From assembly GCA_943840565.1 (NCBI GenBank), contig CALSUY010000003.1:1-34637 (forward strand): DNA of 34,637 nucleotides, written 5' to 3'. The notes beneath the pieces were generated by a model. It saw only the letters and a list, made by a program, of their open reading frames with translations. It ran no database searches and was not told where the DNA came from. Positions within the stretch are counted from its first letter, which is position 1. Every line of letters begins with the position of its first letter. This document shows, in pieces, positions 16,087 through 26,545 of the stretch. The position numbers and the translations under genes are program-made. Source of the stretch: an uncultured Candidatus Actinomarinales bacterium. Lineage in GTDB: Bacteria > Actinomycetota > Acidimicrobiia > Actinomarinales > Actinomarinaceae.

Positions 16087-16692
16087 GTGATTAGTTCTAC
16101 AGTTTTACTCCCTTTTTTAATAATCCAATTTAGCGTTGCTTTTAGCCCTGGATTAATTATTGCTTTAGTTGTAAATCAATCTGTCCAGAATTCACGACGT
16201 AAGGGTATTGAGGTAGGTATAGGAGCTGCTGTTGGAGCAATAGGAATAACCTTAGTTTCTGCAATAGTTGTAAGTCTTTTAGTTAACACTGTACCTGTCA
16301 TGATTAATATTATTTACTTTATTGGCTCTATCTATATTATTCTTAAGGGCTACCAGACAATTACATCAGATACAGGCACTAAAGAAAAAATAGCTGATAA
16401 TTCAGCTTTTCTATCGGGTTTTCAAGTTAATCTTTTGAATCCTAAGATGTGGGTTTTTTATCTCACTGTGTTACCCATTTACATGTCAGACGAAACAAGT
16501 TATTTTGTCAGCTTAATTTATCTTGGTCTTATAACCCTAGTGATAAATTTCATTGCAGATATTACCTATGCTTTTACTAGTGATTACTTCTTTAAGAACT
16601 CATCTGATAAAACAAAGAGTCTGATAAATAAAGTAAGCGGAATCTCACTTCTACTTATAGGTATCTACCTATTCGTCAGCAAGTTTATCTGA
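16087..16692 (+). CDS. LysE/RhtB family amino-acid exporter
   Basis: A 201-residue membrane protein with six hydrophobic helices. The start is GTG (MISSTVLL). The family signature is clear: FSPGLIIALVVNQSVQNSRRKGIEVGIGAAVGA in two pieces (helix 1, then the conserved Arg/Lys loop), a GSIYIILKGYQ helix 3, and VNLLNPKMWVFYLTVLP in the second half. Members export amino acids or derivatives; substrate unknown. Its 3' end overlaps the convergent SPFH gene by 24 bp. Confidence 0.85.
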   Translation: MISSTVLLPFLIIQFSVAFSPGLIIALVVNQSVQNSRRKGIEVGIGAAVGAIGITLVSAIVVSLLVNTVPVMINIIYFIGSIYIILKGYQTITSDTGTKEKIADNSAFLSGFQVNLLNPKMWVFYLTVLPIYMSDETSYFVSLIYLGLITLVINFIADITYAFTSDYFFKNSSDKTKSLINKVSGISLLLIGIYLFVSKFI

Positions 16693-17610
16693 TTCTTCTT
16701 TATCTTCTTTAAATAACTCAGAGATAGCCCCAATACTTCCCAACGTAGCTGATAATTCAGCTGGTAAGAATATCTTGGTTGCATTGCCATCAGCAATTTT
16801 TTCTAATGATTCAAGATACTTAATTGCAATCAAATCATTTGATGGATTTCCTTTATGGATTGCATTAAAGACTTGTTCGATAGCTTCTGCTTCACCTTCA
16901 GCAACTGCGATTTTTTCATATTTTTGTGCATCCGCAACAGCTTTAAGAGCTTCTGCTTCACCCTGTGCGGACAGTATTTGTGACTGTCTTTGACCTTCAG
17001 CAGTCAAAATTGCTGCTTTTTTCTCACCCTCAGCTTCAGTAACTGCTGCTCTTCTGTCTCTTTCAGCTTTCATGACCTTGTTCATTGCATCTTGAACATC
17101 TTGAGGAGGATCTACTCTTTGAATCTCAACTCTTACAACTCGAGTACCCCACTTATCAGTTGCTTCATCAAGAATAAGTTTTAATTGAGTGTTAATATTT
17201 TCTCTTGATGTCAGTGCTGCATCTAATTCCAAATCACCGACAACATTTCTTAAGTTAGTTTGTGCTAGTTTTGTTGCGGCGGTAATGAAGTCTCCTACGT
17301 TATAAACTAATTTCTTCGGATCTGTTGGTTCGTAATATATGACAGCATCAACTGTGATATTTACGTTATCTTTTGTAATAACTTCTTGTGGAGGTACGTC
17401 AATAACTTGCTCTCTCATGTCAACTATGATGAGACGTTCAACCCAAGGAATAACAATATTTAAACCTGGACTTGCTTCCCTGTTGTATTTTCCGAATCTC
17501 TCTATTAAACCTCTCTCGAAGGGTCTTAGTATTCTGAAAAGTCTGAAAATAACTATACCGACGATAATTACTTGTACGATTGTTGTGATAATATCTACTA
17601 TTTGTTCCAT
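16669..17610 (-). CDS. SPFH/band 7 (stomatin/QmcA-like) membrane protein
   Basis: 313 residues. One N-terminal helix (about 5-24) anchors it; the SPFH domain follows: RGLIERFGKYNREASPGLN, VDMREQVIDVPPQEVITKDN, VDAVIYYE, TNLRNVVGDLELDAALTSRE, and VEIQRVDPP. A long coiled coil rich in Ala/Glu (EGEKKAAILTAEGQRQSQIL and on to 250) is typical for oligomerisation. Family members organise membrane proteins and assist quality control. It lies 34 bp downstream of the respiratory operon's last gene, so a role near the bc-type complex is possible but unproven. Confidence 0.88.
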   Translation of the reverse strand: MEQIVDIITTIVQVIIVGIVIFRLFRILRPFERGLIERFGKYNREASPGLNIVIPWVERLIIVDMREQVIDVPPQEVITKDNVNITVDAVIYYEPTDPKKLVYNVGDFITAATKLAQTNLRNVVGDLELDAALTSRENINTQLKLILDEATDKWGTRVVRVEIQRVDPPQDVQDAMNKVMKAERDRRAAVTEAEGEKKAAILTAEGQRQSQILSAQGEAEALKAVADAQKYEKIAVAEGEAEAIEQVFNAIHKGNPSNDLIAIKYLESLEKIADGNATKIFLPAELSATLGSIGAISELFKEDKEESDKLADE

Positions 17611-17644: not shown

Positions 17645-18013
17645 TTAATCAGTAGTGTTTTCAGCTTCAGTTTTCTCTTGTTCGTACCTATTGAGTGCAA
17701 GGACAAACATTACAAAGAGTATTGTGGAACCAGCGAGAAATGTTAAAGGTAGAATTCTAATTTCGAAAGCATTTAGTCCTTCAATTTCTGCAGGTTTTGG
17801 ACCTCGGGGTGCGTAAAGAACAAAGAGTATTGAATTTATAATACACCAACCGAATGTTCCTGCTCCAACTACTAAAAATCCTAATCTTTTACCAAGGTTG
17901 GTTGCATTGATTAAAAAGGTAGATCCAAAAAATGTTATAAGAGAGCCGATAAACATAATTATTCCAGTGATTGTTAGATTTGCTGAAAGCAAAGATCTCA
18001 TTATGTCACGCAT
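17645..18013 (-). CDS. Small membrane protein at the end of the bc-complex operon
   Basis: 122 residues with three or four hydrophobic helices and an acidic C-terminal tail. The loop VLYAPRGPKPAEI between helices resembles TYAPRGVSTSEI of the 80-residue protein at 11162-11404. The start overlaps the end of the cytochrome c frame by 8 bp, so it is translationally coupled to the complex genes and may be an accessory subunit. No family recognised. Confidence 0.6.
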   Translation of the reverse strand: MRDIMRSLLSANLTITGIIMFIGSLITFFGSTFLINATNLGKRLGFLVVGAGTFGWCIINSILFVLYAPRGPKPAEIEGLNAFEIRILPLTFLAGSTILFVMFVLALNRYEQEKTEAENTTD

Positions 18014-18599
18014 CAGGCTCCATTCCTCTTAAATAGTCTATCACTAATGCAATGTCAGACTCTGGTAATACAGCTCCAAATCCTGGCATCTTACCTCCGC
18101 CAACACCATTAACTCCGTACCCTTTACCATTGACAGAACCATTGATAATAAAATCAATGAGATCATCTCTAGATTTAAATTGTATATTCGCTCTACCAGC
18201 TCTAAGTGCCGGCCCTAATCCGCCAGATCCAATTTTTTTTGTGTACGCTACACCAGCTGAGTAACCTGCAGTGTGGCATCGTGCACAGTAAGCGTTGAAG
18301 AGTCCTACAGCTCTTTTAGCTTCATCGATGTTGCCGCCAAATGTAGATTCAGCGATATCCTCAAATGAAACTTCCCATAGTCTCTGTTCTAAGGCTGTTT
18401 CCAAGAATTTAAGTCCCTCTAAACCTTCGTTCAAGAATTTTTCTTGACCATCTACTAATATCCCGGTGTTGATTAATTGTGAGTTGAGTTGTGATAGATA
18501 ACCCCTAGCGACAGAAGCGTCTTTTCTAGATGGTGTAGATTCTTCTTCTTCTGGGTTCAGGTTTAAAACAGATAAACCTACAATGTCTGCATTGTTGCA
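18006..18599 (-). CDS. Second heme-c domain, out of frame with the preceding cytochrome
   Basis: The frame is open from 18599 to the stop at 18006, yet it contains no ATG, GTG or TTG before the TTG at 18434. The 55 codons upstream of that TTG read as ordinary protein (LNLNPEEEESTPSRKDASV, then ARGYLSQLNSQLINTGILVD), so initiation at 18434 would cut off real sequence. The heme site is CARCH (18276-18290), preceded by VGLFNAY; a probable distal Met lies in GGKMPGFG. I take this as the C-terminal domain of the cytochrome at 18578-19429, displaced by a -1 shift near 18580-18600. One extra A in the local AA would join them as EYSA-NNADIVGL. Whether this is an assembly indel, a mutation or programmed frameshifting is open. 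Confidence 0.7.
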   Translation of the reverse strand, partial: CNNADIVGLSVLNLNPEEEESTPSRKDASVARGYLSQLNSQLINTGILVDGQEKFLNEGLEGLKFLETALEQRLWEVSFEDIAESTFGGNIDEAKRAVGLFNAYCARCHTAGYSAGVAYTKKIGSGGLGPALRAGRANIQFKSRDDLIDFIINGSVNGKGYGVNGVGGGKMPGFGAVLPESDIALVIDYLRGMEPDA

Positions 18600-19429
18600 C
18601 TATATTCTGAAATCTCTACTTCTACCGAGTCATAGAGGCCATCCTCATCCGAATCAATCCCGCTATCTTTTTCAAGTAATGCTGAAATTTTATCAACAGC
18701 TTCTTGTAAGACGGGTAATTTTGCTGGCCCAGCTTTTATTTCTTCGATTAAAAGTTTCTGGTTAATAATTTCGTTTTCTACTTGAAGTGCTGAGTTCTCA
18801 AGTCTGAGTAAAGAAGAGTTGATACTTGATTCAATAGTTCCTAATTCAAAGGACTGCTCTACTTGAAATGAGTGTAGGTAGTCAATCAAATCTTCAAGCT
18901 GTCCATCATTCATTGGACCTCCACCTTCAAGACCCCAAGCAGGCATAGGTGAGTTAGCTCTTCCGTAAATAAGCCAGTATTTAACTTCCGAGTCATCGTA
19001 TCTATAGAAAACATTATTTATTGCAGGTGCTGCCCACGTTACCTTCACACCACTACGTTTTTCTACGTAGGAAGCAGCTCCACCGCCACCATCTACACCA
19101 TGACAATTACCACAGCCAAATTCTTCGTATAAATGATGTCCTCTTTCTACGGAGACATCTTCAAACTCTTCAACGAAACTCTCTTGTCGGGAGTCTTCAC
19201 CAAGATAATAAAGTGGAATCATAATTGTTAAAAGGGAAGCAATAAGTACAGCCCATGACAATGACTTATCAAGGTGTTTGGTTTCCAATTCATCATCAGA
19301 TTTATATTTTGTAAGGTTTGCAGGTAGCTCTTCATTCTTTCCTGAACCTCTAAACCCAACAGCAGCAAAGTATGCCAAAGCACCAACAATAGCTAATGAA
19401 AGAAGGGTTATGAAAATAGAACTATTCAT
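18578..19429 (-). CDS. Membrane-anchored cytochrome c of the bc-type complex, N-terminal part
   Basis: 283 residues. Two N-terminal helices (about 5-25 and 57-77), then a cytochrome c domain with heme site CGNCH (Cys106, Cys109, His110) and probable distal Met162 in NSPMPAWG. A coiled-coil-like segment (about 195-250) follows, then an EF-hand-like loop DSDEDG (259-264). The frame ends abruptly at TMQTL in the middle of what looks like a calcium-loop linker, and the next frame continues with another heme domain, so the intact protein was probably diheme, about 480 residues. It should accept electrons from the Rieske protein on the outer face. Start ATG overlaps the Rieske stop by 1 bp (TAATG). 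Confidence 0.82.
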   Translation of the reverse strand: MNSSIFITLLSLAIVGALAYFAAVGFRGSGKNEELPANLTKYKSDDELETKHLDKSLSWAVLIASLLTIMIPLYYLGEDSRQESFVEEFEDVSVERGHHLYEEFGCGNCHGVDGGGGAASYVEKRSGVKVTWAAPAINNVFYRYDDSEVKYWLIYGRANSPMPAWGLEGGGPMNDGQLEDLIDYLHSFQVEQSFELGTIESSINSSLLRLENSALQVENEIINQKLLIEEIKAGPAKLPVLQEAVDKISALLEKDSGIDSDEDGLYDSVEVEISEYSATMQTL

Positions 19430-20322
19430 TAAGACTCTTCAGTTGGAGCTAAAGCGATACATGATAAACCTTGAGGATATTTTACAGAAAGTCCTGGAGC
19501 TCTAGGGGACTCAATAATTGTACCTGTGTCAATAATAAGCTTTCCTGCTGATGACACATTTACTACGAATCTATCTAAATTTCTAGGTGCTGGTCCTGCG
19601 TAATACTCCCCAACCATATTGTATTTTGAACCATGACATGGACATTCGAAACCTTGAGATGAGTTACACCATGGAACCCTGCAACCAAGATGGACACACC
19701 TTTGGTAAACGGCAACTAATCCATCAGCAATTGTTGATCCGTCAGTAAATTGTGAATCTCCTGCGGTACTCTCGCTAAATGGTAAAACATATGCTCGTGC
19801 CTCTGGAATGAAAGCAGGTATGACAGAACCATCTGCTTGTATAATTTGATTTTTCAGGTCTTCAATTTTCCCAGCATCAACCTTGGAACCGAAACCACCT
19901 GATACTTTTGGCCACAGAAACCCAAGCCATGCCAGCGCTTGAATTCCCATAAAAGCTCCAAACGTGCCTCCAAGTGCTTTTCCTAAAAATTGTTTTCTTG
20001 TGATGTATCTCTCTTCTTCAGAGATTTCTTCGTAAACTACTTTTTCTTCAATTTTAATTGAGCCGTCAGTCTCTTCTATAACTTCTTCAGTTTCATCTTC
20101 TGTAACTTCTTCGACATTTACTTCTTCAACTGATTTTGGTTTTGAGGGCGCAAAAAAACTTGTCTTTTCTTTACTCTTTTCAGCTTTTACAGCTCGTTTG
20201 TCTAAGTTTTTCTTCCAATCAATGTTTCCAGGTCCTCTACCGCTAACAATTGCGACAATTCCTACAACACCTAATAAACCTATTGCCCCAATGGCAATAA
20301 AAGATAGCTCAACTATGCTCAT
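19429..20322 (-). CDS. Rieske [2Fe-2S] protein of the bc-type complex
   Basis: About 297 residues from the ATG at 20322, which overlaps the preceding stop as ATGA; an in-frame TTG at 20337 is the alternative. An N-terminal helix (SIVELSFIAIGAIGLLGVVG) is followed by a long acidic cytoplasmic linker (many Glu/Val repeats, about 60-105), a second helix near GGTFGAFMGIQALAWLGF, and the Rieske fold. Cluster ligands are in CVHLGC and CPCHGSKYN, with the two further Cys able to form the usual disulfide. It carries electrons from quinol to cytochrome c. The two-helix architecture resembles actinobacterial QcrA, although the rest of the complex is b6f-like. Confidence 0.93.
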   Translation of the reverse strand: MSIVELSFIAIGAIGLLGVVGIVAIVSGRGPGNIDWKKNLDKRAVKAEKSKEKTSFFAPSKPKSVEEVNVEEVTEDETEEVIEETDGSIKIEEKVVYEEISEEERYITRKQFLGKALGGTFGAFMGIQALAWLGFLWPKVSGGFGSKVDAGKIEDLKNQIIQADGSVIPAFIPEARAYVLPFSESTAGDSQFTDGSTIADGLVAVYQRCVHLGCRVPWCNSSQGFECPCHGSKYNMVGEYYAGPAPRNLDRFVVNVSSAGKLIIDTGTIIESPRAPGLSVKYPQGLSCIALAPTEES

Positions 20323-21203
20323 TCGAAATATATCCAATCTAATAAGTCATCAAACCATATGCCGTCAATCCATGGATATGTCCAGTTCCAACCAGGTCCT
20401 CTAAACAACACTCCAATTATCGTAAGTGTTCCAGCTCCAGCTAGGAAAAAAGTATACATCATGATTGCGTATTTTCTCTTTGACGGATTGTTCTCCTTGT
20501 TTCTATCTATATATGGAATAGCTGCAAAACCAATTAAGCCAATAACAAGTGGAATCATAACTCCAGCAATCTGCGGATCCCAATAAGACAAAGCCTCCTG
20601 TAAGCCAAGAAAGTACCAAGGAGCTTTTGCTGGGTTAGGAGTAATATTTGGATTTGCCTCTTCTAGAAGTGGTGCCTGCAGTATTGCACTCAATAAAATT
20701 AAAAATGCCATCATTGCCATTAATGAAATAAACTCTGGAAGCATGAGGTGTGGCCAAGTGTTAACTTTATCAACTGGCTCAGATGCCGCTTTTTGAATTG
20801 GTTTTGCCTTAACGACAGTTAATAGTCTTTGTGTTACTTTAACTTCTGGAGCAAAATCTACTTCTTCTGGCGTATCTGCTTTTGCAGGAGCAGGTGTTGC
20901 TGCTTTTGCAGGAGCAGGTGCTTCAGCTTTTGCAGGTGCTTCTTCAACTTTAGGTGTTTCTACAGGAGCAGGTGCTTCAGCTTTTGCAGGTGCTTCTTCA
21001 ACTTTAGGTGTTTCTACAGGAGCAGGTGCTTCAGCTTTAACTGGTGTAGGTAAGTCTACTTCAATGACTTCTGGTTCATCATCGACAACAGTCGGTGCGG
21101 ATTCACCTTTCATTTCAGCAAGAGCTTGCTCAACAGTAATCCCTAAAGCTTTAGCTCTAGCTTCTGCGGATCTTAAAAGTAAGTGTTCTGGGATATCAAC
21201 CAT
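20319..21203 (-). CDS. Cytochrome b C-terminal (subunit IV-like) protein with N-terminal tag and repeat linker
   Basis: 294 residues. The last 145 form the subunit IV part: HLMLPEFISLMAMMAFLILL, the quinol-site region NPAKAPWYFLGLQEALSYWD, and two more helices. Before this lies an unusual extension: residues 4-34 (PEHLLLRSAEARAKALGITV, then EQALAEMKGE) match the N-termini of the two cytochromes c at 24585 and 25610, and residues 56-109 are tandem Ala/Pro/Glu repeats. Since subunit IV N-termini face the cytoplasm in b6f, the tag should be cytoplasmic. It sits between cytochrome b (13 bp gap) and the Rieske gene. Confidence 0.9.
   Translation of the reverse strand: MVDIPEHLLLRSAEARAKALGITVEQALAEMKGESAPTVVDDEPEVIEVDLPTPVKAEAPAPVETPKVEEAPAKAEAPAPVETPKVEEAPAKAEAPAPAKAATPAPAKADTPEEVDFAPEVKVTQRLLTVVKAKPIQKAASEPVDKVNTWPHLMLPEFISLMAMMAFLILLSAILQAPLLEEANPNITPNPAKAPWYFLGLQEALSYWDPQIAGVMIPLVIGLIGFAAIPYIDRNKENNPSKRKYAIMMYTFFLAGAGTLTIIGVLFRGPGWNWTYPWIDGIWFDDLLDWIYFE
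20877..21038 (-). repeat. 54-bp coding tandem repeat (18-residue unit) in the subunit IV linker
   Basis: Two identical 18-residue units KAEAPAPVETPKVEEAPA (residues 56-73 and 74-91) and a third degraded unit (92-109, KAEAPAPAKAATPAPAKA). The DNA units are also nearly identical, which indicates recent slippage or unequal exchange. The composition suggests an extended flexible linker like those between E2 domains of acyltransferases. Confidence 0.85.
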
Positions 21204-21216
21204 GTTTTACAATTCT

Positions 21217-21990
21217 CTAGAGCGGTCCAGAGATACCTCCATCTTTTCTAACTCTCCAAAAGTGAATTGCCATAAAGATAACAATGATGAATGGGAAGAA
21301 TAGAACGTGCAATACATAGAATCTGAGCAATGTAGCTGTTGTTGCTTCTAAGCCAGCAAATAACCCAAACTTAATTTGTGCACCAAACACCGGCGTGTAA
21401 CTTGCCATGTTGCCACCAACAGTAACAGCCCAAATAGCCAGCTGATCCCAAGGGAGAAGGTAACCAGTAAAAGAAAGAAATAATGTTAAAAATAACAAAA
21501 TAACGCCTATGACCCAGTTAAATTCTCTAGGTGCTTTATATGCTCCATGATAAAAAACTCGTGACATATGAAGAAAAACTACTAGAACCATAAGGTGTGC
21601 TCCCCACCTATGCATATTCCTTACTAAGGAACCAAATGCTACGCTCGTCTGTAGGGCCTGAATATCTGCATAGGCCATCTCTGTTGGTCGAAAGTAAAAC
21701 ATCAACCAAATACCAGTAATAGTCAAAACGATAAATAGAAAGAAACTCATTCCTCCCAGGCAAAGTGTGTATGACAAACGCACACCATGTCGTTTCACTT
21801 TTACAGGGTGTAAGTGATAGAGAACGTTGTTCATCACTACATATGATCTGTTTCTCGGGCTGTCAGAATAACCTTTTCTAAAAGGTGAGCCTGGACGAAA
21901 AATACTTGTCGCAAACTTGCTTGCTCTAGCAGCATCTCCGGAACCGGCCGATACTTTTTTGAATCTCTCTTTAAGGGTTAATTTTGCCAT
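21217..21990 (-). CDS. Cytochrome b6-type subunit of a quinol:cytochrome c oxidoreductase
   Basis: 257 residues, the N-terminal four-helix part of cytochrome b as a separate chain. Heme ligands are His127/His141 ([15 protein letters not shown]) and His228/His243. The second pair is 15 residues apart as in b6, not 14 as in mitochondrial-type b. YTLCLGGMS aligns with b6 YCLGGIT, placing Cys77 at the cysteine that holds heme cn/ci. [24 protein letters not shown] and the C-terminal GGISGPL are also b6-like. The first about 60 residues are a basic extension. It follows the ferredoxin gene by 9 bp and precedes the subunit IV gene. Confidence 0.93.
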
Positions 21991-21999
21991 TATATTATT

Positions 22000-22449
22000 T
22001 TATAACCTTCCATATATATACCCGTGTCTGTCAGTTCTTTCCCCTGAGTCTTCATCCCAAGGTGCTGTATACAAACCATTCTCAACAGCTGCATCAGCTA
22101 AAGATCCAGCAAATTTACCTAATGAAATTACTCCAGTAGGACACCTGTCAACACAAAGCGCACATCTAGTACAAGCGTCTTCGTCAACGACGAAAAAGCC
22201 AGGAGCTTCTTCTGCATTGGGAGACTCTACATTTACAGAGTCATCGATGGCATCAACAGATAGATAGTGGATACATTTCCACGGACAAATATCTACACAA
22301 CCCTCACAAAGAATACATTCTGCTTCGTCGATATGAAGAAATTGTTTCGGACGAACTCTAGATGATACTTTCTGTGCATCAACCATTGCAAGATTGTATT
22401 TTTTTTCAAACTCTGGCATTTCTATTAGTACTTCAGATTTTTTAGCCAT
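22000..22449 (-). CDS. 2[4Fe-4S] ferredoxin-type protein of the bc-type operon
   Basis: 149 residues, soluble. Two cluster motifs: CILCEGCVDICPWKC (47-61) and CTRCALCVDRCP (about 91-102). The first has an extra Cys after PW, the second is canonical. Flanking N- and C-terminal parts (45-50 residues each) are unique. Located as second gene of the operon, overlapping the preceding gene by 8 bp, so it may bring electrons to, or take them from, the cytoplasmic face of cytochrome b, near the heme ci site. Function inferred only from position. Confidence 0.85.
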   Translation of the reverse strand: MAKKSEVLIEMPEFEKKYNLAMVDAQKVSSRVRPKQFLHIDEAECILCEGCVDICPWKCIHYLSVDAIDDSVNVESPNAEEAPGFFVVDEDACTRCALCVDRCPTGVISLGKFAGSLADAAVENGLYTAPWDEDSGERTDRHGYIYGRL

Positions 22450-23035
22450 CTGTACCTGTTTTCACAACTTTTTTGCCATAGTCAGAAATTTTAACTTTGC
22501 CTTTTTCTTTCATGTTATTGATATCTTGAACCATGTACCCAAGCACAAAGACAGCGATTAATGCACCCTGTGATATTCCTAATTGGATAACATCTTTTAA
22601 AGCTCCAAAGCTCATAGAGACTTCATTACCAAGAAATAACATTGGTGGAAATTTAATAAACTCTCTTTGGTTAGTCCACTCTAATGGACCTTGTGCTAGG
22701 TTGAGCCACTCTGATGGAAGGACTCCAAAAATTAATGTAAGTTGAAGCCAGCTTAAAAAAGAAAAATATGCTGCCTTACTCCAGGTAAGTGGTTTATCGC
22801 TCCACGCCATAAGAACCAGCCCAATAAGAATTAATTGACTGCCACTAAAGGCAACAAACTGACCGATGGTCTGTGGAAGCCAACCTCGTGGAATCCAGTT
22901 GAAGTAATCTACAATTTCACCTTGAGGAAAACCTGCATAATGAGCAACTATAACTCCACCCGTCAAGCTACCTAAGCCAGCAAAGAAAGTTGGTAAACCA
23001 AGTTTTACTCGGTTTCTATATACAAAATTTATCAA
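22442..23035 (-). CDS. Membrane protein, first gene of the bc-type operon
   Basis: 197 residues, starting at TTG (23033-23035) with AAGGA 7 nt upstream; an in-frame stop just before fixes the start. About four hydrophobic helices: PTFFAGLGSLTGGVIVAHYA, FVAFSGSQLILIGLVLMAW, a central FSFLSWLQLTLIFGVLP, and QGALIAVFVLGYMVQDI. The tail is basic. I recognise no family. Its tight coupling to the ferredoxin and cytochrome b genes makes an additional membrane subunit of the complex likely. Confidence 0.7.
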   Translation of the reverse strand: MINFVYRNRVKLGLPTFFAGLGSLTGGVIVAHYAGFPQGEIVDYFNWIPRGWLPQTIGQFVAFSGSQLILIGLVLMAWSDKPLTWSKAAYFSFLSWLQLTLIFGVLPSEWLNLAQGPLEWTNQREFIKFPPMLFLGNEVSMSFGALKDVIQLGISQGALIAVFVLGYMVQDINNMKEKGKVKISDYGKKVVKTGTDG

Positions 23036-23188: not shown

Positions 23189-24592
23189 ATGAAAATAAAA
23201 TTGATTCCGAAGAATGAACAAGACTTGTCCAAAGTTTTTATTTTTCTACTTCCTTTAGTAGTTTTACTATCTGCTTCAATAAACTTTTTAAAAGATGCCT
23301 TTAGATCTTTCTCAAATGTTCTTCCTGGAAACCAGGTACTTAATTACGGATTTTTAGATAAGCTGTCAAACCAAATAAGTTTCAATTTTTTATTTTCTTT
23401 TATATTGGTTGTGACGGTTGTCTACCTTTTGTCTAAGTCATTAGGAAGATCGATAATTATATTTCCTCTTTTCTTCCTCACCGGACTTGGGTTAATCGGC
23501 ATTGAGTTTATAGATGTGGTATTAGCTTTTATATCACCTGAACAGTTACTCGATCTTGGAAATACATCTGTTCTTTTATTAATTAAAATACTCTTAGTCG
23601 GAGCTTTTTTAGGTCTCATATTATTAAACTTTTTAGCTAAAAAAGAACCTTCAATCTTTTTGAGTAGTCAATTTCTACTCGGGGCTGTTGTGTTTTATCT
23701 AATTTCATTACTAATTTACAGAAGCGAATATACAGTTATGTCTGATAACTTCTTCATAAATTCTATGTACCTGTCAACGCATATATATGTTGGTTGTTCG
23801 TTTGTATTCTTATCAATTTTTTACTTCTTGATAACTAAGGGTATGCAAGCAACTTTATTCAGTAAAACACTGGGGACAATAAGTTTTTGGGGTTATTTAT
23901 TCCTATTACCTTGGACTGGTTTTAAATATTTTTACGGAACTACGTTACCTGACTGGATTGAGAATGTCTCAATTTACCTCTCTCTTAGCCTGATAATTCC
24001 ACTCCTTGCTTTAATAGTTAATTACTCTAAGACCATTGCTACAAAAGAAAATAAAGAGCCTGTTTTTTCAGTTCTGATAAGTTTTGCTTTTGTCGTATTT
24101 GGATTAACAAATGTTTTACAAATTATTAGTTCAATATCTAATGTTACACCGATAGTAAGTCTTACTAATTTTGAATACAGTGTCCGTTATGGATATATGT
24201 ATAGTCTCATTCTTATCTTGATTCCATTTGTCTATCATCTAGTGCCAAAAATATATGGAAGAGAATTCATCTATGGTCGATTGGAAACTTTTAATGCTTA
24301 TCTTTTAGGAACCTCTGTTGTAGCAACACTTTCATTGAATACCTTAATTGGAATTAATTCGGGATTTTCATGGAATGCAGGTGCAAATGCAGGTAATCCA
24401 ACAATTTATGGAGAAGGTTTCTTGATCACATGGTCATTAATTTCAACTCCATACACTCTCATATTGTTTCTATCTTTATTATTTTTACTTTCAACATTCT
24501 TATTTACTCTCTCAACACTAAAAGCAATTATTGGTGGATCCGTTACTGAGTCTGAAACTGTATCAGAGATATCAGGAGATAATGATGAGTGA
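23189..24592 (+). CDS. CcoN-like (cbb3 oxidase subunit I-like) protein lacking metal ligands
   Basis: 467 residues from ATG at 23189 (a TTG directly before is the alternative), about twelve hydrophobic helices. Two blocks align without gaps to CcoN: FW..........W.G.......TLPDW (residues 233-256) and a late helix ending HLVPKIYGREF, which matches the CcoN LVP...R.LYS..L region. Yet the CuB motif GPHHLHY reads GFKYFYG (Lys246, Tyr247) and the heme motif GHVH reads RYGY (Tyr334, Tyr336). The whole protein has only two His (198, 350); CcoN needs six. It cannot work as a normal heme-copper oxidase. It is first in an operon with two cytochromes c, like ccoNO. Role unknown: scaffold, electron-transfer partner or a new cofactor arrangement. 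Confidence 0.72.
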   Translation: MKIKLIPKNEQDLSKVFIFLLPLVVLLSASINFLKDAFRSFSNVLPGNQVLNYGFLDKLSNQISFNFLFSFILVVTVVYLLSKSLGRSIIIFPLFFLTGLGLIGIEFIDVVLAFISPEQLLDLGNTSVLLLIKILLVGAFLGLILLNFLAKKEPSIFLSSQFLLGAVVFYLISLLIYRSEYTVMSDNFFINSMYLSTHIYVGCSFVFLSIFYFLITKGMQATLFSKTLGTISFWGYLFLLPWTGFKYFYGTTLPDWIENVSIYLSLSLIIPLLALIVNYSKTIATKENKEPVFSVLISFAFVVFGLTNVLQIISSISNVTPIVSLTNFEYSVRYGYMYSLILILIPFVYHLVPKIYGREFIYGRLETFNAYLLGTSVVATLSLNTLIGINSGFSWNAGANAGNPTIYGEGFLITWSLISTPYTLILFLSLLFLLSTFLFTLSTLKAIIGGSVTESETVSEISGDNDE

Positions 24593-25388
24593 ATTATTAG
24601 CAAAAGTAGCAGAGATACTAGGAGCTCCAGAAACATTGGTTCAGAGATCAGCTGAAGCAAGAGCTGAAGCATCTGGAAATACTGTTGAAGAAGTTTTACA
24701 ATCATGGGCTGGTGGAGAAGCAATTGCCCCATCAGCGCCTGCAGCTGAGACTCCTGTAGTTGAAGACGCTCCTGTAGAGGAAGTCAAAGAAGAAGTTGTA
24801 GCTGAAGAGGCTCCTGTAGAGGAAGTCAAAGAAGAAGTTGTAGTTGAAGACGCTCCTGTAGAAACAATGGAGAAAGTTATTGAAGAGGAATCTGTTGAAT
24901 TAAAAAAGGAAAGCTCTTTAATCTTCATCGCTGGTGTTCTAGGTGTTGCCATGTTTACTTACTTCTTTGCATTTTCAATACCTAAAAATCAGAGTGCTGA
25001 TTTGGTTGCTGAGTCTCTAAATAATGAGGTTGTAGTAAGCCAAGAAGTATTAAAAGGTGCTCAAGTTTATAACGATTTAAATTGTCAATCTTGTCATACG
25101 CAAAATGTAAGACTTTTAATACCAGATTCACAAAATGGTAAAATTTTAAAAAATAAATTTGCCGATGAAATAATCATAAAGAATACTGGACTGCTTCGAC
25201 TAGGCCCAGACTTATCTACATCAGCAACAAGAGAACCTACCAACAATGAAAAATGGTTAACTAGATATTTAACAGACTCTGCATCAGTGAGAGATACTAT
25301 TCCTCACCCTAACTATGATTTCTTAAGCAGCTCAGATTTAGATTATTTATTAACTTATTTATTATCCTTAGGGGAAGTAAATGAATAA
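24585..25388 (+). CDS. CcoO-like membrane-bound cytochrome c with shared N-terminal tag
   Basis: 267 residues from the ATG at 24585, with AGGAG 6 nt upstream; ATG at 24582 is too close to it. The start overlaps the CcoN-like stop. Order: N-terminal tag (1-46, PETLVQRSAEARAEASGNTV at its core), acidic VEEVKEEVV repeats (to about 100), one helix (SSLIFIAGVLGVAMFTYFF), and a cytochrome c domain with CQSCH (167-171). NCQSCHTQNVR, LRLGPDLS, the YL.D...R spacing and NYDFL mirror CcoO, but the distal-ligand motif NMPAYPWL reads PHPNYDFL, so His241 replaces Met; a bis-His heme is possible. The tag and linker should be cytoplasmic, the heme outside. Confidence 0.85.
   Translation: MSELLAKVAEILGAPETLVQRSAEARAEASGNTVEEVLQSWAGGEAIAPSAPAAETPVVEDAPVEEVKEEVVAEEAPVEEVKEEVVVEDAPVETMEKVIEEESVELKKESSLIFIAGVLGVAMFTYFFAFSIPKNQSADLVAESLNNEVVVSQEVLKGAQVYNDLNCQSCHTQNVRLLIPDSQNGKILKNKFADEIIIKNTGLLRLGPDLSTSATREPTNNEKWLTRYLTDSASVRDTIPHPNYDFLSSSDLDYLLTYLLSLGEVNE
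24589..24759 (+). repeat. 171-bp perfect direct repeat, copy 1
   Basis: Identical base for base to 25614-25784 (offset 1025 bp), including all synonymous positions. It encodes the shared N-terminal tag of the CcoO-like cytochrome. After an 18-bp insertion in this copy (encoding VEDAPV), identity resumes for about 67 bp through the 42-bp VEEVKEEVVAEEAP repeat units. Confidence 0.95.
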
Positions 25389-25617
25389 AAAACAAGTAAA
25401 CAATGATTGGGACATTACAAGATGTTCAAAACCATTTTGTTGCCAAGAGGACGCAGAAGAATATATGACTTCTAAAAACTTTGATGGAATGGTATTAGAA
25501 CTCAATGATGGCACTATACAAGCTGTTTGTCCTACCTACCCCGCTGGTTATTATTCTGGTGCTAAAACTTTATCCAAAATTAATACGAATGAAAGTTGCT
25601 GTGATATAAGTGGGTGA
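25381..25617 (+). CDS. Cys-rich small protein between two cytochromes c
   Basis: 78 residues, overlapping the genes on both sides (8 bp each), so it is surely translated with them. Soluble; Cys at 15, 20, 21, 50, 73 and 74, including two CC pairs (KPFCCQED and ESCCDISG). No heme motif and no membrane helix. I do not recognise it. The CC pairs could bind copper, zinc or an Fe-S cluster, or form disulfides; an assembly factor for the cytochromes is one possibility. Confidence 0.65.
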   Translation: MNKKQVNNDWDITRCSKPFCCQEDAEEYMTSKNFDGMVLELNDGTIQAVCPTYPAGYYSGAKTLSKINTNESCCDISG

Positions 25618-26545
25618 ATTATTAGCAAAAGTAGCAGAGATACTAGGAGCTCCAGAAACATTGGTTCAGAGATCAGCTGAAGCAAGAGCTGAAGCATCTG
25701 GAAATACTGTTGAAGAAGTTTTACAATCATGGGCTGGTGGAGAAGCAATTGCCCCATCAGCGCCTGCAGCTGAGACTCCTGTAGAGGAAGTCAAAGAAGA
25801 AGTTGTAGCTGAAGAGGCTCCTGTAGAGGAAGTCAAAGAAGAAGTTGTAGCTGAAGAGGCTCCTGTTGCTAAATCAGTAACAACAAAAGTTGAAACTGTA
25901 ATCAAAAAAGTCTCCATGGCCAATAACACTATGGGTATTAAGTTAAATACTGACACTACTCTCCCAAGGTGGTTGAACTTTAGCTTTATGATTATTCCAG
26001 TATTTATCCTCATAGGAATGATTAATACTTCTGGTGCGCAGGAATGCGGAGTAAATGGAATCTTAGATGTAGACAGAAAATCTCAACAAACTGTTAATTG
26101 TGATGGATCACCCTTCGAAGGAAAAGGTGTAGCATCCACAAACGCTGTTAATTATGTAGCCGTAGGTCAGCAAGTTTATTCAGGTGCTGCGGCATGTGCT
26201 GGTTGTCACGGGGCTAATGGTGGCGGTGGTGTTGGACCATCTTTTATTGGTGGAGCTCTTTATACAACATTCCCAACCTGTGCAGATCATGCGAAATGGA
26301 TACAACTTGGATCAGCTGGTTGGCAGGCCGAAGTAGGAGCAGCTTATGGTGCTGAAGATACAATATCTATCGGTGGCATGCCTGGATTCCAAGGTAAATT
26401 AACTGAAGAAGAACTAATGGCTGTTGTTGTTTTTGAAAGAGTGGTCTTCGGTGGAGGAAATACAGAGGAAGTACTCATTGATTGTGGCCTTCTTGAAACA
26501 GAAGAAGACGAAGAAAATATAGAAGCGGTCAGTACAACTCCTTAA
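25610..26545 (+). CDS. Membrane-bound cytochrome c with shared N-terminal tag
   Basis: 311 residues from GTG at 25610; the second codon GGT then GAATTATTAGC places it exactly as in the paralogous start at 24585. Order: tag (1-46), two VEEVKEEVVAEEAP units (about 58-85), a basic segment, one helix (WLNFSFMIIPVFILIGMI), a Cys-containing spacer (QECGVNG, VNCDG), and a cytochrome c domain with CAGCH (Cys196, Cys199, His200) and distal Met257 in GGMPGFQG. Two more Cys (TFPTCADHA and IDCGLL) may form a disulfide. C-terminus acidic. It may take electrons from the bc-type complex. Confidence 0.87.
   Translation: MGELLAKVAEILGAPETLVQRSAEARAEASGNTVEEVLQSWAGGEAIAPSAPAAETPVEEVKEEVVAEEAPVEEVKEEVVAEEAPVAKSVTTKVETVIKKVSMANNTMGIKLNTDTTLPRWLNFSFMIIPVFILIGMINTSGAQECGVNGILDVDRKSQQTVNCDGSPFEGKGVASTNAVNYVAVGQQVYSGAAACAGCHGANGGGGVGPSFIGGALYTTFPTCADHAKWIQLGSAGWQAEVGAAYGAEDTISIGGMPGFQGKLTEEELMAVVVFERVVFGGGNTEEVLIDCGLLETEEDEENIEAVSTTP
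25614..25784 (+). repeat. 171-bp perfect direct repeat, copy 2
   Basis: Second copy of the 171-bp sequence at 24589-24759. Encodes the N-terminal tag of the second cytochrome c. The heme domains downstream are not similar at DNA level, so only the tag and linker have been homogenised or copied. Confidence 0.95.

Follow-up and report, generated by a model that had tools for sequence, protein, structure and literature searches.

The window analysed here, a 34,637-nucleotide stretch of contig CALSUY010000003.1 from an uncultured Candidatus Actinomarinales bacterium (GenBank assembly GCA_943840565.1), encodes a protein resembling CcoN, subunit I of the cbb3 oxidase, with just two histidines, H198 and H350, among its 467 residues. 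This raises the question of what an oxidase subunit could do without the residues that hold its cofactors. An initial annotation had counted these histidines correctly and had proposed a heme-copper oxidase fold without catalytic function. The contig belongs to Ca. Actinomarina, the title carried by relatives at 60-99% identity.

Homology and lost ligands of the CcoN-like protein

The open reading frame begins with an ATG at 23189 and ends with a stop codon at 24590-24592. Its product matched the Pfam profile COX1 (PF00115) above the cut-off (8.6e-9) and the cbb3 CcoN chains in the PDB (7e-15, phmmer alignment), as well as TIGR00780 ccoN (1.4e-16), the last at 60.5 bits and thus far under the equivalog cut-off of 583 bits, which was passed by 0/296 genomes of the phylum sample. 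Profile-profile comparison aligned the CcoN-like family with His-bearing CcoN over 457 columns with a probability of 100 and an E-value of 5e-60. Taken together, the sequence and profile matches indicate that the product is a genuine CcoN homologue, and the similarity first read from the ungapped sequence, for which a PF00115 search had been proposed as a check, is borne out. The AF2 model of the protein was poor (pLDDT 52.5, pTM 0.49) and too weak to overlay; a Foldseek search with it ranked cbb3 first at an E-value of 0.023, which is weakly supportive. W234, N278, T282, T326 and R358 are shared with CcoN and conserved, and the family has a distinctive conserved G-rich stretch at its C-terminal end.

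The ligand positions were located by MAFFT alignment with annotated plasmid CcoN/FixN sequences and with His-bearing CcoN from other actinobacterial classes, using as reference the P. nitroreducens residues H68, H215, H265, H266, H353 and H355, which we take to be the ligand histidines according to the known cbb3 structure. The CuB histidines of P. stutzeri CcoN have been given as 207, 257 and 258 (PMC3578206). The six positions are occupied in the CcoN-like protein by S60, S196, K246, Y247, V332 and Y334, and the active-site cross-linking tyrosine of helix VII aligned with L240 in the phmmer alignment. The alignment thus agrees with the earlier reading of the CuB pair as Lys246-Tyr247. The two heme histidines, previously read as Tyr334 and Tyr336, are indeed lost, but their register differs, falling on V332/Y334 in the MAFFT alignment and on S331/R333 when counted ungapped from LVPKIYGRE. 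H198, which had been suggested to match the first CuB histidine across a 2-residue gap, was aligned in this way by a genus-only profile and not by broader alignments; it is invariant in Actinomarina (34/34 distinct sequences) and absent outside the genus. At most one of the six ligands, H198, could therefore survive in this protein.

Conservation among relatives does not support the initial view that tyrosine had replaced histidine at four ligand sites. Position 247 varies between Y and F across the 34 distinct Actinomarina sequences, position 334 among Y, Q and H and position 336 among Y, F and L, while K246 is invariant; elsewhere in the class, A, G, S, Q, R, T, P, V and other residues occur at the six sites. 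Tyrosine ligands were rejected on these data, since the ligand sites hold many different residues, and an active oxidase with odd ligands was likewise rejected on conservation. A search of 46 ligand-less sequences for a conserved column of His, Met, Cys, Lys or Tyr found none except Y53, the one high tyrosine column of the family, which is phenylalanine in most CcoN and is no ligand site. No orthologue with all six histidines was found. Because the ligands are lost, oxygen reductase activity is predicted to be absent, and it is near certain from the alignments that the protein is no catalytic oxidase, as originally proposed.

Of 42 Actinomarina genomes, 35 carry the ligand-less gene; in two of the remaining seven the contig stops before the expected gene start. 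Across the class, a search with the family profile (E < 1e-40) detected it in 75 of the 197 Acidimicrobiia genomes sampled. Ligand-less members also occur in a few lineages of other classes (loci L142-L145 and L147); His-bearing CcoN is likewise present in other classes (L146, L148-L155). The gene is under strong purifying selection, with dN/dS values of 0.03-0.07 for the closer computable Actinomarina pairs and intact reading frames, consistent with the earlier expectation that it is kept and is not decaying. The ligand-less clade received a support of 96 in a tree built with the ligand columns and 56 without them, so a single origin is suggested by a value that falls once these columns are removed. 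Separately, genome G292 carries a second, divergent CcoN-like copy (L156:8247-9677, +) in which the first CuB histidine aligns with Trp and the other five ligands align with His, and at L146 and L148-L151 His-bearing CcoN adjoins proteins of 640-673 aa with five CxxCH motifs, an unusual cbb3-type partner.

A divergent gene cluster containing complex III

The genes surrounding the CcoN-like gene are listed in Table 1. The initial annotation had placed it in one operon with two cytochromes c, facing a bc-type operon; this arrangement was confirmed and is conserved across Acidimicrobiia loci, nearly all complete loci having the order TM122, diheme cytochrome c, Rieske protein, subunit IV, cytochrome b6, 2x4Fe-4S ferredoxin and TM197, followed divergently by the CcoN-like gene, the CcoO-like gene and a cytochrome c. 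Promoter, terminator and Rfam scans gave no signal beyond chance, and TM197 had no match in Pfam. A 1-nt deletion near 18590, relative to locus L033, breaks the diheme cytochrome c of the window into ORFs of 142 and 283 aa and is either a sequencing error or a recent mutation. Following the bc operon, at 16669-17610 (-) and also nearby in Actinomarina relatives, lies an SPFH/Band 7 (stomatin-like) gene, whose product is a possible membrane-domain organiser.

Table 1 Features of the divergent cluster, with positions in the window
Feature	Position	Strand	Evidence or remark
TM122, three-TM protein, last gene of the bc operon	17645..18013	-	position conserved
Diheme cytochrome c	18006..19429	-	frame split in window; 477 aa in relatives
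Rieske iron-sulfur protein	19429..20337	-	PF00355 2e-7; Cytb6fFeSPetC 3e-18, under cut-off
Subunit IV / PetD-like cytochrome b C-terminal subunit with docking peptide	20319..21203	-	PF00032 4.7e-7; ExtQ 1.3e-14, under cut-off
Docking peptide copy, N terminus of subunit IV (PetD-like)	21102..21200	-	3.6e-19; model partly built from same sequence
Cytochrome b6-type subunit	21217..21990	-	PF00033 1.6e-43; ExtP NF040969
Ferredoxin-like protein, two 4Fe-4S motifs	22000..22449	-	Fer4 4.1e-12
TM197, four-TM protein, unknown family, first gene of the bc operon	22442..23035	-	position conserved
Ligand-less CcoN-like protein	23189..24592	+	467 aa, 10-12 predicted TM helices; PF00115, TIGR00780 and PDB cbb3 matches
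CcoO/FixO-like membrane-anchored mono-heme cytochrome c	24585..25388	+	FixO 1.4e-6, slightly under cut-off; Cytochrom_C over cut-off
Docking peptide copy in CcoO-like cytochrome c, N-terminal	24618..24716	+	
Second membrane-anchored mono-heme cytochrome c (cytc_P)	25610..26545	+	Cytochrome_CBB3 6.8e-7
Docking peptide copy in cytc_P	25643..25741	+	

The pairing of CcoN with CcoO is retained at the ligand-less loci. In the window the CcoO-like gene overlaps the stop codon of the CcoN-like gene by 8 nt, and its CxxCHTQ..R and GPDL motifs agree with FixO. The two proteins are fused at L091 and L095 and are often one protein in families f2 and f7, and CcoO adjoins ligand-less CcoN in other classes as well (L142, L143). 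At L095 and L097, genes of the CcsA and ResB families, which serve cytochrome c assembly, separate the halves of the cluster. In ten relatives that lack the CcoN-like gene the bc operon is still there, usually accompanied by a lone divergent cytochrome c, but the CcoN/CcoO pair is missing; from gene content, this pair therefore looks like a module that was added (or lost). At L097 (7093-9237, -) the ligand-less CcoN carries a C-terminal cupredoxin fusion and lies beside a caa3 operon, and there the copper protein may stand in for the heme-c subunit. Where CcoO has the axial methionine segment xMPSY, Actinomarina has IPHPNY and f10, f15 and f27 have an HPSY-like sequence, while the methionine is retained in f20, L097 and L142. 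A heme c with bis-His ligation and a lower potential may be present.

Although complex III was reported missing in Ca. Actinomarinales in a published genome survey (PMC7771536), the genes of the cytochrome b6/IV/Rieske operon (window 17645-23035) indicate that it supplies this complex. It is of the split cytochrome b type, with b6, subunit IV and Rieske protein encoded together, and is the only cytochrome-b complex found in Actinomarina, each genome having one PF00033 cytochrome b, the cluster copy, apart from G012, which has two. The b6 subunit scored 288 bits against ExtP (NF040969), whose cut-off is 290, and 111 bits against the actinobacterial QcrB model (NF050120), short of the cut-off of 500 bits; the diheme cytochrome of L102 scored 20.7 bits against QcrC (NF050122), short of 200 bits. 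The CcoN-like family rarely occurs together with actinobacterial QcrB (3/75 versus 40/122 genomes, p = 7e-7), a Fisher p value that is descriptive, its significance overstated by the phylogenetic non-independence of the genomes. Many other genomes of the class have b6-type complexes without a CcoN-like gene.

The initial annotation had suggested checking whether a true oxidase is encoded elsewhere, and a conventional A-type (caa3) oxidase was found in 38/42 Actinomarina genomes, with a heme-c domain on CoxB at both caa3 loci examined; no A-type oxidase was found in the window's own genome, which is 71% complete. A second, divergent A-type subunit I is also present in two Actinomarina genomes, at G012:C1:4423-5814 and G017:C5:766-2169.

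A peptide common to the cluster and to caa3-linked proteins

Subunit IV, the CcoO-like protein and cytc_P have in common an N-terminal helical motif of ~32 residues with the consensus PExLxxRSAxARAxAxGxxVExVLAxW, referred to here as the docking peptide, which has no Pfam match. Matches of the peptide to designed repeat proteins in the PDB were judged to be chance. In an AF2 model of the CcoO-like protein the peptide was the only confident part (helices 2-16, 20-34 and 38-45, pLDDT about 70). Because the cytochromes c have a single TM helix with the heme domain outside, their peptides are predicted to lie on the cytoplasmic side.

Nearly every CcoN-like locus of the class with gene ends present carried the peptide on subunit IV and the cytochromes, with weak matches at L095 and L097; the peptide was absent or marginal in the ten bc clusters without CcoN and in other classes. 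Among 101 genomes of the class, it occurred in 32/34 genomes with the CcoN-like family versus 6/67 without it (p = 6e-18, descriptive as above). Most of the six peptide-positive genomes without CcoN (G096, G126, G141 and, more loosely, f18) have close relatives bearing the gene, and two family members, G046 and G051, had only weak peptide matches.

The same peptide extends beyond the cluster. A peptide-tagged 6-TM protein was found near the caa3 genes at 11/11 loci inspected, and across Acidimicrobiia an unannotated peptide-bearing protein of 6-8 TM helices is encoded within a few genes of the caa3 operon (L196, L197, L208-L216); two of these proteins were tested and gave no Pfam or NCBIfam name. 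In Actinomarina, the alpha subunit of a 2-oxoacid:ferredoxin oxidoreductase carries the peptide at one or both ends together with long Glu/Pro/Val-rich linkers (L198-L207). Since this oxidoreductase is cytoplasmic, the peptide may be a general tether.

A predicted scaffold for a complex III-IV assembly

These observations are probably best explained if the CcoN-like protein is a cofactor-free, cbb3-derived scaffold that holds heme-c subunits in a complex III-IV assembly. A cbb3 subunit I would have lost each of its six ligands for metal and heme and been retained in the membrane, holding the CcoO-like heme-c subunit, and probably also cytc_P, beside the b6-type complex III. Quinol would be oxidized by the cytochrome b6/IV/Rieske complex, and electrons would pass from the diheme cytochrome through the hemes of the CcoO-like protein and cytc_P to the separate caa3 oxidase. 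The helical peptide, on the cytoplasmic side of subunit IV, both cytochromes c and the caa3-linked membrane protein, would gather these parts into one assembly. We infer this physical assembly and electron path, as well as a binding target for the peptide. The idea of a supercomplex scaffold, already raised in the initial annotation, thus gains indirect support from the peptide shared by the bc complex, the cytochromes c and the caa3-linked protein, while its alternative proposal of an electron wire through the subunit does not agree with a family in which no heme-holding residue is conserved.

Other roles were weighed against the scaffold. That the protein is an assembly or maturation factor, a chaperone for membrane cytochromes c with no lasting place in a complex, is suggested by several other lineages in which the gene adjoins genes for assembling cytochrome c or heme (CcsA/ResB, CcmF, CtaA/CtaB). 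In Acidimicrobiia, however, the gene is co-linear with, and sometimes fused to, a structural CcoO or cupredoxin and stands opposite structural bc genes, and this reading is considered unlikely. A transport role retained without hemes, through a proton path or a quinone site, would resemble that of the cofactor-free antiporter-like subunits of complex I and would suit the bundle of 10-12 helices, the five residues shared with CcoN and the G-rich C-terminal stretch. It seems improbable, since the family showed no conserved chain of carboxylates or lysines in the membrane, the conserved residues being nearly all Gly, Pro, Trp, Leu or Phe.

A heme still bound through alternative ligands such as K246 or H198, and carrying electrons, would fit the invariance of both residues within Actinomarina, but neither is conserved elsewhere in the family and the only candidate column family-wide is Y53, which makes this very unlikely. 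The loss of every catalytic residue is also what a decaying, functionless oxidase gene or an assembly error might produce; intact frames, strong purifying selection and presence throughout much of the class sample leave this a negligible probability, and it is regarded as refuted by conservation.

The proposed scaffold can be compared with several described systems. It shares the fold family and subunit neighbourhood of the cbb3 CcoN with CcoO/CcoP, but unlike cbb3 it has no ligands for heme b, heme b3 or CuB and no active-site tyrosine, and it sits in a bc gene cluster. The obligate III2IV2 supercomplex of Actinobacteria (QcrCAB-aa3; PMC8361435) likewise has an electronic link, through bound c hemes, between complex III and an A-type oxidase, as we infer here, whereas the cytochrome b of the present cluster is split into b6 and subunit IV, no QcrC scored over its cut-off, and a pseudo-cbb3 module and docking peptides are added. 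The CIII2CIV bc1-cbb3 complex of R. capsulatus with its membrane-anchored cyt cy (PMC7876108) also combines a bc complex, a CcoN fold and an anchored cytochrome c, but its CcoN is an active oxidase, while here CcoN is dead and the oxidase is caa3. The closest named model for the b6 subunit is the ExtP/ExtQ pair of selenite/tellurite reduction operons (NCBIfam), from which the cluster differs in operon content, with b6 just under the ExtP cut-off and subunit IV well under that of ExtQ. The cbb3 of N. gracilis also has unusual active-site residues, altered around CuB, but is described as keeping most of its heme and CuB sites (PMC3578206). No description of a heme-copper oxidase subunit maintained by selection without any cofactor ligand was found in the open-access literature.

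The ligand-less family spans much of a bacterial class, and the cluster around it reveals the complex III that Ca. Actinomarinales were reported to lack. A broader suggestion, put forward tentatively, is that an oxidase subunit emptied of its cofactors could serve as the membrane hub of a respirasome, onto which a dedicated helical address peptide would collect complex III, heme-c carriers, a protein partnering caa3 and, in Actinomarina, also the 2-oxoacid oxidoreductase that reduces ferredoxin. With a docking peptide defined by its sequence, the assembly of a bacterial respirasome becomes testable, and genes labelled 'cbb3 oxidase' in Acidimicrobiia genomes may be no evidence of high-affinity respiration of oxygen.
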